The translations under genes and the position numbers were made by a program. A stretch of 64,000 nt of DNA from Paenibacillus donghaensis (GTDB taxonomy: Bacteria > Bacillota > Bacilli > Paenibacillales > Paenibacillaceae). The notes below the pieces were generated by a model that saw only the letters and a list, made by a program, of their open reading frames with translations, did no database searches and had not been told where the DNA came from. Shown piece after piece: positions 3,533 through 53,145 of the stretch; the stretch's first letter is position 1; each line of letters opens with the position of its first letter. The stretch lies in assembly GCF_002192415.1 (NCBI RefSeq), contig NZ_CP021780.1:5270001-5334000 (forward strand), written 5' to 3'.

Positions 3533-3798
3533 ACCCTCCCAAACCAGCGTCGAACCCTCTGGGGCCCTCCCTTCCAAGGGAGGGTCCCAGAGGGCGCTGC
3601 CCTCTGGACTCCCGCAAGTTTGGCGAATGAGCCTGGCGGTACGGTGATTAGGCGGCTGGGAGGGGGGAACGCTTATCCCTGCGGGACCGCTTGGACGCCC
3701 GCATGGGCTGGCCCGCTATCCCTGACGGGATGCGTGCCGGGGGCTAAGGTCAAAGGCGGGCTGTTCCTGCGGAATGCGCAAGATAATTTCCTATACAT
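3533..3798 (+). repeat. Interspersed repeat D, copy 1
   Basis: This shares long blocks with 6112-6285 and 39811-40262. In order: CCCTCCCAAACC, a long hairpin built on CCCTCCCTTCCAAGGGAGGG, the block CTCCCGCAAGTTTGGCGAA, CTTATCCCTGCGGGACCGC, and one 42-bp-type unit (GGCGGGCTGTTCC..GGAATGCGCA) before ATAATTTCCTATACA. In this copy the hairpin arms extend to CCCTCTGGG/CCCAGAGGG, giving a stem of about 19 bp. It fills the gap between rsmE and a candidate terminator at 3797-3844. All reading frames look like shadows. Confidence 0.8.
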
Positions 3799-3844: not shown

Positions 3845-3880
3845 CCACTGCATCTTATTACGCTTTAATACATACAAATT

Positions 3881-4130
3881 TTGTTACTACTTAGGCCTTA
3901 GCGAAGATTAGAATATTACTCCGGAACGTTCAACGCAAATAGATGCAAAAGTGCAACTAATTTCAGCTGTAACCTCTCTCAGAAGGTGATTAAGTGCGAT
4001 ATTGCAACTAATTTTGAGCAAATCGAGTCTTCTGCGCTCAAACGCCAGAATTAGGTGCCTTTTTGCAACTATTCGCTTCAAAACGTGAAAAATCGGCAAA
4101 TTAAATGCACTTTTGCATTTAATTCAATGG
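3881..4130. repeat. Four-palindrome element, family A copy 1
   Basis: Four imperfect inverted repeats of the form AATTAGATGCA-N4-TGCAACTAATT, with TGCN..TGCA cores centred near 3949.5, 4000.5, 4061.5 and 4111.5, so spaced 51, 61 and 50 bp. The fourth is a perfect 11-bp stem around CTTT. The left flank (TTGTTACTACTTAG, GGAACGTTC) also occurs in copy 3, and GGAACGTTC in copy 2, so the whole block of about 250 bp is the repeated unit. It lies between the M50 gene and rsmE. A minus-strand frame is open through part of it but has no ribosome binding site. Confidence 0.9.
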
Positions 4131-4253
4131 CTCGGACTTAGGAAACCACTGCGAAGTTAAATCTTCTGTATTCTCGTCCTACGGAGACCTAAGCAGTAAT
4201 CAAATTTTATCATACAACGTTTGGAAGAGGTAGACCAGACTTGACATCCGGCT

Positions 4254-11385: not shown

Positions 11386-11400
11386 GTTTTTTTCCTCCTA

Positions 11401-11655
11401 AAGTTTTATTAGCATAAGCTACAATGAATCTGCTTCGGTAAAACTCGCTTCGAAAGCATATGCCTAAGTTTTATTAGCATAAGCTACAATGAATCTGCTT
11501 CGGTAAAACTCGCTTCGAAAGCATACGCCTAAGTTTTATTAGCATAAGCTACAATGAATCTGCTTCGGTAAAACTCGCTTCGAAAGCATACGCCTAAAGT
11601 TTTATTAGCATAAGCTACAATGAATCTGCTTCGGTAAAACTCGCTTCGAAAGCAT
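11401..11655. repeat. 65-bp tandem repeat (4 copies) between araB and araA
   Basis: Copies begin at 11401, 11466, 11531 and 11597 (period 65, 65, 66) and are almost identical; the last is slightly shorter. Each contains AGTTTTATTAGCATAAGCT, then GGTAAAACTCGCTT. AGTTTTA and TAAAACT are complementary, so each copy can fold as a hairpin in RNA. The array fills nearly the whole 293-bp gap between two operon genes and stops just before the araA ribosome binding site. Confidence 0.95.
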
Positions 11656-11678
11656 GTTCCCAGTTTTGTGAGCGCCGC

Positions 11679-22516: not shown

Positions 22517-22768
22517 GGTTACTCCTTGCTTCCAGACGCATATAGAATGTTACCCTGGAACGTTCAACGCAAATAGATGCGAAACTGCAACTAATTTTAG
22601 CTGAAACCCCTGTCAGAAGGCAATTAAGTGCGATATTGCAACTAATTTCGAGTAAATCACTCCCCTTACGTTCCAACGCCTGAATTAAGTGCCTTATTGC
22701 ATCTATTTGCTCCAAAACGCAAAAAATTCGTAAATTAGATGCGTTTTCGCAACTAAATCAATGGTTCC
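22517..22768. repeat. Four-palindrome element, family A copy 2
   Basis: The same layout as at 3881-4130: TGCN-N4-TGCA-type cores centred near 22583.5, 22634.5, 22695.5 and 22745.5, spacing 51, 61 and 50 bp. Unit examples are AATTAAGTGCGATATTGCA and AAATTAGATGCGTTTTCGCA. It shares TTACCCTGGAACGTTC on the left with copy 3 and CAATGG on the right with copy 1. It lies between convergent genes (protease and dnaJ), so it is not in a promoter region. Confidence 0.9.
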
Positions 22769-36820: not shown

Positions 36821-37032
36821 ACAGGCCACAGTAGGGTGCACTAGGGCGCAGGCGCAGTAGGCAGGCCACAGTAGGGTGCACTAGGGCGCAGGCGCAGTAG
36901 GCAGGCCACAGTAGGGTGCACTAGGGCGCAGGGCGCAGTAGGGCAACAGGGCACAGTAGAGCAACAGGGCACAGTAGGGCAACAGGGCACAGTAGAGCAA
37001 CAGGGCACAGTAGAGCAACAGGGCACAGTAGG
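36821..37032. repeat. Tandem repeats: 40 bp x 3, then 18 bp x 5
   Basis: Three 40-bp units (AGGCCACAGTAGGGTGCACT..., starts 36821, 36861, 36901) followed by five 18-bp units (GCAACAGGGCACAGTAG plus one base, starts 36943, 36961, 36979, 36997, 37015). Both share the GCACAGTAGG / GCACTAGGGC word set with the decamer array that follows, so all probably arose from one seed. No gene is seen in 36625-37814. Confidence 0.92.
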
Positions 37033-37060
37033 GGCGCACTAGTGCACTAGGGCTAGGGCA

Positions 37061-37230
37061 CAGTAGGACGCACTAGGACGCACTAGGGCACACTAGGGCA
37101 CACTAGGGCACACTAGGGCACACTAGGGCACACTAGGGCACACTAGGGCACACTAGGGCACACTAGGGCACACTAGGGCACACTAGGGCACACTAGGGCA
37201 CACTAGGGCACACTAGGGCACACTAGGGCG
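37061..37230. repeat. 10-bp tandem repeat CACTAGGGCA, 15 near-perfect copies
   Basis: Exact decamers CACTAGGGCA from 37081 to 37220, a last CACTAGGGCG to 37230, and two diverged CACTAGGACG before them. The unit is close to one helical turn, so CTAG falls on the same face each time. Such a pure array is prone to length change by slippage. Confidence 0.97.
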
Positions 37231-37334
37231 CTAGAGCACTAAGCACTAGAGCACTAGTGCGCTATAGCTAACCGTAAGTCGCAGTAACTAACCGTAAGCC
37301 GTAGCGGACGGCAGCAAACTTGCAGCAGCCGGGT

Positions 37335-37530
37335 GGAGGTAACTGTATTTTGCGCAGTTATTTAAGCGATTTGGAAGACCAAAAGATGTATAACTGCATT
37401 CCGTACAGCTATATCTTTTCATTTGGCTGCATAACCGTGTTTTGACGAAAAATAACTGCACCAAATACAGCTAAAGTCGTTTTCGGCCCTTTTTTGGCGA
37501 AAATAGCTGTACCAAATACAGTTAGCCTTA
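37335..37530. repeat. Four-palindrome element, family B
   Basis: Four inverted repeats of the form TAACTGTA-N5-TACAGTTA (variants TAACTGCA, TAGCTGTA), centred near 37350, 37401, 37463 and 37514. Spacing is 51, 62 and 51 bp. The sequence is not that of family A, yet the layout is nearly identical. It lies between the decamer array and the 3' end of the anti-sigma gene. Confidence 0.85.
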
Positions 37531-39810: not shown

Positions 39811-40262
39811 TTCGATCCCTCCCAAACCCTCCCTTCCAAGGGAGGGCCCCAAAGGGCTGCACCCTCTGGACTCCCGCAAGTTTGCCGAAGGAGTCTGGCG
39901 GTACTGTGATTAGGAGGCTGGGGTGTAGGACCGCTTATCCCTGCGGGACCGCTTGGACGTCGCTGATGTTGGCCGGCTATCCCTGACGGGATGCTCGGCC
40001 GGAGTTGAAGGTCAAAGGCGGGCGGTTCCTGCGGAATGCGCAAGACCTTAACCGCCAAGGCGGGCTGTTCCTTCGGAATGCGCAAGACCTTGATCGCCAA
40101 GGCGGGCTGTTCCTGCGGAATGCGCAAGAGCTTGATCGCCAAGGCGGGCTGTTCCTGCGGAATGCGCAAGATCTTAAGGGCAAGAGCAGGCTGTTCCTTC
40201 GGAATGCGCAAGATCTTAACCGCCAAGGCGGGCTGTTCCTGCGGAATGCGCACAGCTATACT
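39811..40262 (+). repeat. Interspersed repeat D, copy 3 (longest)
   Basis: Contains all blocks of copy 1 (CCCTCCCTTCCAAGGGAGGG, CTCCCGCAAGTTTGCCGAA, CTTATCCCTGCGGGACCGC, TATCCCTGACGGGATGC) followed by six 42-bp units where copy 1 has one. It lies between the ECF sigma gene start and the terminator of the 78-residue gene, the same relation as copies 1 and 2. Confidence 0.85.
40015..40252. repeat. 42-bp tandem array, 6 copies, inside repeat D3
   Basis: Units begin at 40015, 40057, 40099, 40141, 40183 and 40225 (period exactly 42). Each holds AAGGCGGGCTGTTCCTGCGG then AATGCGCAAGA. Because 42 is a multiple of three, several frames stay open and give 14-residue repeats (for example RIPQEQPALA on the minus strand). 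I treat these as shadows of the repeat. Confidence 0.95.
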
Positions 40263-40271
40263 ATACGACAA

Positions 40272-40306
40272 GAAAAAAAGGCACCCTCCTTCTATGGAAG
40301 GTACCC
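40272..40306 (-). terminator. Terminator of the 78-residue gene
   Basis: On the minus strand GGTACCTTC-CATA-GAAGG followed by a GGGTGCC arm and seven T. It lies about 30 bp after the stop codon. Confidence 0.7.
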
Positions 40307-40572: not shown

Positions 40573-40687
40573 AAGGCTCACTCCCCGGATTCATGGTATG
40601 GATACTAGCACAACGTTTCAGAAGTCCTTACCCGGCATGCTCCTGATCTGCAAACAAGCGGTCCACATACACTCGCTTACTGCCCAA

Positions 40688-40875
40688 AATACCTGCAATT
40701 ATACAGTTTTTTTCGTGCAAAAACCGCCTTCGGTACCCAAAGCCTGTAAAAGTGCAGGAATTTACGTCTCCATCGCCGATTCGCAGACCCAAGCGCCGGA
40801 AAACCTGCACTTTTGCAGGTTTTCCGCGAACAAGGGGAGAAGGAGAGGAAATACCTGTACATTTGCAGGAATTTC
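40688..40875. repeat. Four-palindrome element, family C
   Basis: Four inverted repeats CCTGCA-N4-TGCAGG (variants CCTGTA, TACAGT), centred near 40699.5, 40750.5, 40811.5 and 40861.5. Spacing is 51, 61 and 50 bp, the same as in all family A copies. Unit 3 is perfect over AACCTGCA / TGCAGGTT. It lies between the start of the 78-residue gene and the 3' end of the aldolase gene. 40876-41170 holds only a CCGTAC/GTACGG hairpin without a T-tract. Confidence 0.88.
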
Positions 40876-41170
40876 TCTCCGAGTGAGCCTCCTGGCCCTT
40901 CGCCACAAGTTTTGTTCTATCGAAACGGGGGAACTGGAAAGGAACTTATGAAACGTACTACTGGCAGCCGGTAGCTTCTATAGAATCAGTTTAGTTGATC
41001 TGTGCCCATTCTATACTTTTGGCAGGCCAGAAGCCATCACAAGCTGCGGCTGCGGCTTTGTAGTCCACGGGAAGAGAGTACGCCAAACAGACCGTACGGC
41101 TGATGCTCCAGCGGTACGGCCTGCTCCTAAATGATATCTGCGGTATAGCAGTCTATGGCGTCTACTTGGC

Positions 41171-47790: not shown

Positions 47791-48579
47791 TCAGAACACT
47801 ACCTCAGCTTTTAGCTTCTCCAGCATCTTGGTACCAATGCCCTTGACTTTGCCCAGATCAGACAGGCTGCGGAACGGTCCCTTACTGGTACGGTATTCGA
47901 TAATGGCGGCTGCTTTTTTCTCGCCGATGCCAGGCAGATCCATCAGTTCGGCTGTTCCTGCCGTATTTACATTCACCTTACCTGCCTGATCAGCCGTACC
48001 TCCTGCTGCACCTGTCGCTGCCTGACCGCCTCCGTTCGTTGACGCCTGACCTGCCTCCACATCCGCACCTGCCGGTCCGCCTCCGTTCGATGACACCTGA
48101 CCCGCTACAGCACCCGCACCTGCCTGACCACCTCCGTTCGATGACACCTGACCCGCTACAGCACCCGCACCTGCCTGACCACCTCCGTTCGATGACACCT
48201 GACCCGCTACAGCACCCGCACCTGCCTGGCCGCCTCCGTTCACGCCCGCTTCCGCCTGCCCCGCCGCCTCGCCGGTCTGCCTACCTTGCGCCATGACTTC
48301 TCCACCTGCGGTGTCCTTTCCAGCTGTACCTGCGCCTGCCGGTCCGCCTTTCTGGCCAGCAGCGGCACCCGTAACCTCACCCTGGTTTGCCGCCTTTTTC
48401 GTATACGCCTCATCTGTTGCACCCTCGTCGGCAGGAGCAAGACCAACCATTTGTTCCATCTCGGAGTTCACCGTCTCCCAGCCCGAAATGCCGCTGTCAC
48501 TGCCGCTGCCTGCCGTCCAGATCAAAGCTCCGCCAATCAGCGCCGCAGCGATGCCATACAAGACTGAAGTTTTAATCAT
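47791..48579 (-). CDS. comEA: ComEA DNA receptor with expanded repeat linker
   Basis: 262 residues. N-terminal membrane anchor (SVLYGIAAALIGGALIWTAG), a very long Gly/Ala/Gln linker containing four 17-residue repeats (GGGQAGAGAVAGQVSSN), and a C-terminal helix-hairpin-helix DNA-binding domain (VNVNTAGTAELMDLPGIGEK, KAAAIIEYRTSKGPFRSLSD, LGKVKGIGTKMLEKLKAE). It binds double-stranded DNA outside the membrane and feeds ComEC. It lacks an obvious SLBB domain found in many homologues; the repeat linker fills that place. AGGAGG precedes the ATG. Confidence 0.92.
   Translation of the reverse strand: MIKTSVLYGIAAALIGGALIWTAGSGSDSGISGWETVNSEMEQMVGLAPADEGATDEAYTKKAANQGEVTGAAAGQKGGPAGAGTAGKDTAGGEVMAQGRQTGEAAGQAEAGVNGGGQAGAGAVAGQVSSNGGGQAGAGAVAGQVSSNGGGQAGAGAVAGQVSSNGGGPAGADVEAGQASTNGGGQAATGAAGGTADQAGKVNVNTAGTAELMDLPGIGEKKAAAIIEYRTSKGPFRSLSDLGKVKGIGTKMLEKLKAEVVF
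48029..48240. repeat. 51-bp tandem repeat inside comEA
   Basis: Units begin at 48029, 48080, 48131, 48182 and a partial one at 48233; the middle ones are almost identical at base level. The period (17 codons) keeps the frame, so copy number can change linker length without breaking the gene. Confidence 0.95.
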
Positions 48580-49718: not shown

Positions 49719-49965
49719 GTTACTACTTAGATCCCAGCGAGCATTTAGAGGGTTACCCTGGAACGTTCGGAGTAAATAGATGCGAAAGTGCAACTAAATT
49801 CAGCCAGATCGTAAGTTGGCAGTCGAATAAGTGCGAATCCGCAACTAATTTCGAGTAAACCAAGCATATTTCGCTCAGAATGCCAAATTAGATGCTTATT
49901 TGCATCTATTTCCTCCAAAACGGAGAAAATCCGTAAATTAGATGCACATTCGCAACTAAATGAGA
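49719..49965. repeat. Four-palindrome element, family A copy 3
   Basis: Cores centred near 49786.5, 49837.5, 49898.5 and 49948.5; spacing 51, 61 and 50 bp, the same as copies 1 and 2. Units include AAATTAGATGCTTATTTGCA and AAATTAGATGCACATTCGCA. The left flank TGTTACTACTTAG and TTACCCTGGAACGTTC matches the other copies. It lies between convergent comER and leuS. Confidence 0.9.
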
Positions 49966-52864: not shown

Positions 52865-53145
52865 AAAAAACCCCCCATCCCTAGCGTATTATCGCTAGGG
52901 ACGAGAGGTTATAGATCCCGTGGTACCACCCTAGTTAGCAGCAGATATGCTTCATCATGCTACTCACTTTGCACCCTTTAACGGGGGTGAGGCGATGGCG
53001 GTTCACGCCATTACTCCAAGGTGAGTTCATTCCGGTCCGCCCTACCGACTCGCACCTTAGCGCCGGCTCTCTGCAATGACGGTCTCACGAACTACTACTC
53101 CTCATCATCGATCCACTATATTCACGATTAGATATCGCAATATTC
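52865..53145 (-). ncRNA. T-box leader of leuS (tRNA-Leu sensing)
   Basis: Minus-strand leader with the T-box AGGGTGGTACCACGGG (52917-52932) and a terminator CCCTAGCG / CGCTAGGG followed by six T (52865-52900). The Stem I region lies at about 52981-53090. A CTC triplet at 53023-53025 within GAACTCACC is the likely specifier, a leucine codon. Uncharged tRNA-Leu should pair with specifier and T-box, form the antiterminator and allow leuS expression. Confidence 0.92.

Follow-up and report, generated by a model that had tools for sequence, protein, structure and literature searches.

Phased quartets of palindromes in Paenibacillus donghaensis and its order, a possible duplex-DNA platform for a dimeric protein

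Short, intergenic, multicopy palindromes that stand in regular groups, have family-specific sequences and serve as insertion targets are known from the REP/BIME/RAYT systems. Regularly spaced palindromes bound by dimers are also found in plasmid centromeres (e.g., sopC) and in nucleoid-protein arrays. Insertion sequences such as IS1397, ISKpn1, and ISRm22 target REPs and insert at the axis of the palindrome. Insertion into REP palindromes was reported for members of the IS3, IS110, IS4, IS256, and IS5 families, the main text of that report containing no mention of IS66 (PMC1525189), and the main text of a REP survey does not mention Paenibacillus (PMC12306157). Here, we describe an intergenic element of about 180 bases, the quartet, consisting of four evenly phased palindromes. 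Quartets resemble REPs, BIMEs, and MITEs, yet they depart from REPs in the complementarity of their arms, in the head sequence and in RAYT association, and they form a fixed set of four at about 51/61/51 bp. Whereas a sopC-type centromere is a single array, each chromosome has numerous four-site units, and no partition protein is linked to them. Our literature search for such quartets found no paper among open-access papers.

The window, i.e., the whole 64-kb stretch of the P. donghaensis chromosome that was analysed, contains five quartets, three of family A and one each of families B and C, all with the spacing given in a preliminary description of this DNA:

3940..4121, unstranded, A quartet 1, centres 3949.5, 4000.5, 4061.5, 4111.5, spacing 51/61/50
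22574..22755, unstranded, A quartet 2, centres 22583.5, 22634.5, 22695.5, 22745.5, spacing 51/61/50
49777..49958, unstranded, A quartet 3, centres 49786.5, 49837.5, 49898.5, 49948.5, spacing 51/61/50
37340-37524, B quartet overall, centre spacing 51/62/51
37340..37360, unstranded, B site 1 TAACTGTATTTTGCGCAGTTA, N5 type, centre 37350
37391..37411, unstranded, B site 2, centre 37401
37453..37473, unstranded, B site 3, centre 37463
37504..37524, unstranded, B site 4, centre 37514
40690-40871, C quartet overall, centre spacing 51/61/50
40690..40709, unstranded, C site 1 TACCTGCAATTATACAGTTT, centre 40699.5
40741..40760, unstranded, C site 2 AGCCTGTAAAAGTGCAGGAA, centre 40750.5
40802..40821, unstranded, C site 3 AACCTGCACTTTTGCAGGTT, centre 40811.5, loop inverted relative to site 2
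40852..40871, unstranded, C site 4 TACCTGTACATTTGCAGGAA, centre 40861.5

Recomputation returned the same four centres for family C as the preliminary description, and the same spacing as in family A. The shift to 51/62/51 in family B had been put down to one extra base per palindrome, and the linkers bear this out: measured edge to edge between the 20- or 21-bp sites, they are 31/41/30 in A and C and 30/41/30 in B, so that the extra base of B sits inside each palindrome. The N4 and N5 types have the same linkers in other genomes too. After orienting each element, the loops of sites 3-4 run opposite to those of sites 1-2, giving an overall dyad with the site order forward, forward, reverse, reverse. 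The spacings of 50-51 and 61-62 bp differ by one helical turn.

The window contains further repeats. Directly left of the B quartet, 36821-37259 is densely filled with tandem repeats of 10 and 18 bp (CTAGGGCACA and units related to it), and a 42-bp tandem repeat occupies 39973-40294 (within 39812-40294). Another interspersed repeat family is seen in the matches of 39812-39959 to 3550-3697 (85%) and of 39998-40045 to 3736-3783 (90%). Four copies of a 65-bp repeat (CCTAAAGTTTTATTAGCATAAGC...) are located at 11397-11667, sequence similar to it by eye flanking an A element elsewhere (L016), and tandem copies at 47998-48252 have a period of 51 bp, a number equal to the quartet spacing.

Scoring halves on WWNNTGYR, 4 or 5 bp apart, at spacings of 49-52/60-63/49-52, our scanner identified 58 quartets in an 864-kb sample of the genome, consisting of the window and forty 20-kb stretches (half of them picked around known copies). 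The reversed sequence and a 9-base-block shuffle both gave none, confirming that such quartets recur in the genome and not in shuffled DNA. In a contiguous 400 kb (C1:100001-500000), 12 quartets were found, about 30 per Mb or, extrapolated to the genome of one 8.54-Mb contig, about 250 per genome; together with the window, the figures are 17 in 464 kb and, by extrapolation, about 310. In these 464 kb, neighbouring strong sites lie within 150 bp of each other in 76 cases (one case in the reversed control), and the distance is 50-51 bp in 36 of them and 60-63 bp in 19, together 55; ten others of 41-42 bp probably come from the 42-bp tandem repeat at 39973-40294. For A, DNA searches of the genome scored 40 of 264 first-look candidates and revealed at least 42 places; for C they gave 18 that span most of the query, and for B about 20. 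Tandem arrays of C-like quartets occur too, with five copies in locus L077 and four in L078, and at L076 11477-11788 five sites 50 bp apart are followed by a 61-bp step. In genome G014, a quartet is followed by a fifth site 49 bp on (L155 16575-16786), which suggests that arrays are able to lengthen in steps of about 50 bp.

For the analysis of half-sites, 112 quartets (111 from this genome and one from G014; 49 A, 23 B, and 40 C) provided 896 halves. The TG core was found in 892 and TGYR in 856 of them, fractions that are partly a matter of choice, as the scanner scores these letters. TANNTGYR, whose letters are likewise partly scanner-selected, occurs in 345 of 392 A halves, 182 of 184 B halves and 68 of 320 C halves; the outer TA is thus common to A and B, and C halves are mostly without it. 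Of the earlier claim that a TGCA/TGTA core is common to all half-sites and that the letters outside it differ, the first part stands in the form of TGYR and the second holds only in part, A and B also sharing the outer TA. Across 42 aligned quartets of all families, the TG and CA columns are invariant. The NN letters vary among the halves of a single element, so they do not have to encode the family, and a single protein that recognises TGYR could act on several of the families.

The two arms of a palindrome were compared with shuffled partners, the counts including array copies unless stated and the A set of 49 containing the one G014 quartet. Matches at the NN positions fell below expectation in A (33 observed versus 73.7 expected at -7, 100 versus 115.9 at -8) and in B (39 versus 44.0 at -7, 34 versus 44.9 at -8), which argues against pairing hairpins. 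Position -4 equalled expectation (60 versus 59.9 in B, 80 versus 80.9 in C). Small excesses were seen in A at -10 (194 versus 188.1) and -9 (194 versus 191.1), and one in C at -9 (74 versus 60.5; 34 versus 30.3 without array loci). As the copies are related, arm mismatch may be inherited. On balance, these statistics speak against selected hairpins and for a reading of the half-sites in duplex DNA.

Cores outlast spacers, also at loci shared between genomes, in copies that were partly selected by their cores. For copies that have the named geometry and do not lie in array loci, pairwise identities of core and spacer are 0.929 and 0.413 in B (22 copies), 0.898 and 0.677 in A (22), and 0.851 and 0.655 in C (11); since B was defined by exact spacing, the B copies are free of indels by construction. 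As an independent check on B, BLAST located 19 distinct places, of which the scanner accepts 17. In five comparisons of shared loci across genomes, identity was 219/240 in the core (0.91), 64/80 in NN (0.80), 69/88 in the loop (0.78), 361/509 in the spacer (0.71), and 366/598 in the flank (0.61). Adding three possibly paralogous comparisons (L237/L240/L245), the values are 353/384 (0.92), 106/128 (0.83), 113/136 (0.83), 571/813 (0.70), and 553/904 (0.61). Locus L184 is used twice in the comparisons. L237 and L240 (88% identity) may be paralogous because their source genomes G203 and G169 are so close; L246 and L248 from the same two genomes are 99% identical and, thus, uninformative. The choice of copies and loci by core scoring, in the scanner and in the model, inflates the conservation of the core; the letters of NN and loop do not enter the score of the scanner. 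At L184/L189, the flank (0.82) is better kept than the spacers (0.71), and between L184 (genus g1) and L207 (genus g17), where the adjoining gene is 76% identical, the values are 0.77 for the cores and 0.51 for the spacers.

A sequence-only model built from 42 quartets, which is fitted to the forms that occur in this genome and possibly misses drifted ones, matches 75 of 100 same-genus genomes (E 1e-3), where scoring of up to 26 candidates per genome gives presence data and no copy numbers. It matches 65 of 149 genomes of the order (1e-6), in 20 of 38 genera, and 4 of 299 genomes phylum-wide, three of which belong to the same genus. The sole match beyond the order (G523) comes from a contig whose frames, judged by eye, show an rRNA region and an SLH-type protein; this contig may be foreign to its bin. 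In the sister genus g14, the quartet was not detected in 17 of 17 genomes, and a repeat search of these plus 23 of the 25 same-genus genomes that had been negative yielded 0/40, the same model having known positives. A scan of 400 kb sampled from six same-genus genomes, four of which (320 kb) are positive for the model, gave one quartet, and the density elsewhere may be much lower than in this genome. That the geometry is kept while the letters change, as the preliminary description had claimed, holds in a few other genomes, where near-equal spacing goes with other half-sites: TANNTGGA at 51/62-63/52 in G033 and mostly YCRTTGYA at 50-51/62/51 in G017. G038 displays mixed forms, e.g., GGAGTGTA, at 51/61/51. 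A DNA search for C in 39 relatives gave no match besides the own genome, and single queries with the C element against plasmids and with the A element against phages gave no match.

Conserved dyad half-sites at fixed helical spacing, as found here, are a mark of a protein-bound operator or nucleoid array. With a probability of roughly 55%, we consider each element to be a duplex-DNA platform for four dimers of a sequence-specific protein, the loci being kept by selection. A dimeric DNA-binding protein would occupy the four palindromes, recognising the core TGYR in halves 4 or 5 bp apart with A+T-rich outer ends. With about 10.2 bp to a helical turn, spacings of about 51/61/51 bp amount to roughly 5, 6, and 5 turns, and with this phasing the dimers would face one way and could form one dyad-symmetric complex. 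At 10.5 bp per turn, the spacings would be short by about 2 bp per step; the rotation between sites would still be constant and would suit the assembly of four dimers into a single complex, with the DNA wrapped or aligned. Selection would maintain the elements locus by locus between the genes of many members of the order, the half-site drifting with the putative partner protein and the scaffold staying. The spacing, the common core, the arms without consistent covariation, the cores better kept than the spacers (in copies selected partly by core), and the distribution are observed; protein binding and the assembly of four dimers are inferred, and the most likely function would be to organise the nucleoid or its loops, or to insulate genes from one another. 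Counting against the platform are the background-like gene orientation given below, the small arm-match excesses in A and C, the better-kept flank of L184/L189, the possibly low density in other genomes, and the search for a partner gene. Among ORFs inspected by eye, no common neighbour gene was found in few-copy genomes and beside tandem arrays. Clustering of the neighbours at 84 loci gave one family of nine, which may be AraC-like, and no consistent partner.

The main rival, which we regard as unlikely though it is the strongest of the alternatives, takes the quartet for two joined transposon ends, each with two transposase sites 50 bp apart, and thus for a non-autonomous deletion form served by a transposase in trans. 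The forward-forward-reverse-reverse order of the sites, the dispersed copies with unrelated flanks and the tandem arrays are what it would lead one to expect, as is the location of A and C quartets inside elements with terminal repeats of their own:

3882..4201, unstranded, MITE carrying A quartet 1, terminal inverted repeat KGTTACTRCTTAGG
40605..40964, unstranded, MITE-like element carrying the C quartet, from flank comparison of 18 C copies

The former has a 6-bp target duplication, AAATTT, on either side (3876-3881 and 4202-4207). Many A quartets lie inside such MITEs of about 310-320 bp with the terminal repeat GGTTACTRCTTAGG, a 14-mer with 252 exact occurrences in the genome and 0 in the control. 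The ends of the C element (CTAG...CGTTTCA.AAGT), CTAGCACAACGTTTCAGAAGTCCTTACCC on the left and, on the other strand, CCAGTAGTACGTTTCATAAGTTCCTTTCC on the right, differ from those of A; its terminal repeats are seen, with no target duplication established. In aligned B copies, there is no conserved flank beyond sites 1 and 4 except a weak GC after site 4, and neither an outer terminal repeat nor a target duplication was seen. The likeness to MITEs lies in the terminal inverted repeats around A and C quartets and in the 6-bp target duplications of A. That the same four-site module occurs in two elements with unrelated terminal repeats, and at shared loci of different species, sets it apart from MITEs and speaks against transposon ends, as does the lack of a visible target duplication in B. 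Outside quartets, 28 doublets were counted in 903 kb (three in the reversed sequence), and no outward pair enclosing a gene was noticed by eye among them.

Improbable by comparison is a structured RNA or bidirectional transcription terminator. Three elements of the window fold better than their shuffles (z of -5.9 for C, -4.4 for A, and -3.3 for B), and some C sites resemble stems followed by T-rich sequence; palindromic DNA of any kind, however, folds well. After 5 of 40 near-identical C copies were dropped, no consistent helix was found among the top covarying columns, and the below-chance NN arms of A and B do not fit a selected stem. No Rfam match above gathering score falls on the elements, the only one in the window lying elsewhere:

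52894-53117, minus strand, T-box leader, Rfam RF00230

Nor is there a significant excess between convergent genes. Leaving out L072, L074, L076, L077, L078, and quartets less than 600 bp from a locus end, 95 quartets were kept, of which 10 were overlapped by an ORF of at least 120 aa and 80 were classed; convergent pairs numbered 30/80 versus 20/78 in the background (p = 0.13) and divergent pairs 13/80 versus 17/78 (p = 0.42). Avoidance of promoters was considered when a first count appeared rich in convergent pairs, and was dropped as the difference from background is not significant.

REP-like single-strand hairpins read by a RAYT or another HUH nuclease are, in our view, very improbable. 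The many copies, their intergenic position and palindromic nature, and the small arm-match excesses at A -9/-10 and C -9 are compatible with them, as are insertion elements hitting the axis of the palindrome, which PMC1525189 reports for REPs. PMC2817692, however, describes REP palindromes as preserved, suggesting complementary mutations, whereas the NN arms of A and B match below chance, and the family consensuses are without the GT(A/G)G head. A link to REP-associated tyrosine transposases, raised in the preliminary description, did not emerge either: among 100 same-genus genomes, Y1_Tnp was present in 43 of 75 with quartets and 13 of 25 without (Fisher p = 0.65), so that 32 of the 75 quartet-bearing genomes had no match. 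In the genome of the window itself, Y1_Tnp matches five genes, of which four score nearly alike (133-aa frames) and the fifth is broken.

Quartet sites are themselves targets of insertion. Among 48 distinct elements with the A terminal repeat, 23 show a perfect 6-bp duplication and 33 one of at least 5/6. Site halves border the 6-bp target on both sides in 31 of the 48 and on at least one side in 42 (random expectation 0.06% and 3.4%), the loci having been fetched partly because they contained that repeat. The IS66-type transposon thus cuts at the centre of A-type sites. One target site is of the C type (L107 9557); by eye, the listed flanks otherwise look A-type and none lies in a B site. A 1605-bp single-gene element (L116 5154-6758) carries the A terminal repeat and a 501-aa IS66-type transposase and sits in the middle of a quartet-type site, where the 6 bp GATATC are perfectly duplicated. 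It fits best as the candidate autonomous partner of the A MITE. The REP-targeting insertion sequences likewise enter at the axis of a palindromic repeat; the difference is that one copy with the terminal repeats here encloses an IS66-type transposase. Two other genes found between the same repeats, one of IS110 type (L092) and one of IS256 type that is split in two frames (L121), were rejected as partners, both looking like later insertions. A-type sites also harbour another MITE of 300 bp, highly uniform and bounded by the A terminal repeat (L073 9075-9374, L087 6191-6490, L105 11700-11999, and others), inside which our scan found no quartet. That the sites are only insertion hot spots of the IS66-type transposon and MITEs is the least probable reading of all, for even with site halves at so many A-repeat elements, an insertion target needs no four-site spacing, and the sites hit look A-type, with one of C type and none seen in B.

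Returning to the platform of four dimers, a broader picture can be drawn tentatively, and we hold it to be possible rather than probable. It would comprise an order-wide system of, by extrapolation, 250-300 four-dimer stations of about 180 bp, with an undescribed architectural protein that co-evolves with the half-site; it would be absent from g14 and hijacked by MITEs and an IS66-type transposon. If the spacing holds to within about one base from genus to genus as the letters drift, selection would see the architecture more than the sequence. MITEs nested with a transposon that cuts at the site centre would offer a handle on how transposases choose palindromic targets. The element itself could serve as bait for a protein that organises the chromosome in a large order of Gram-positive bacteria, with the negative genomes of the same family as controls.
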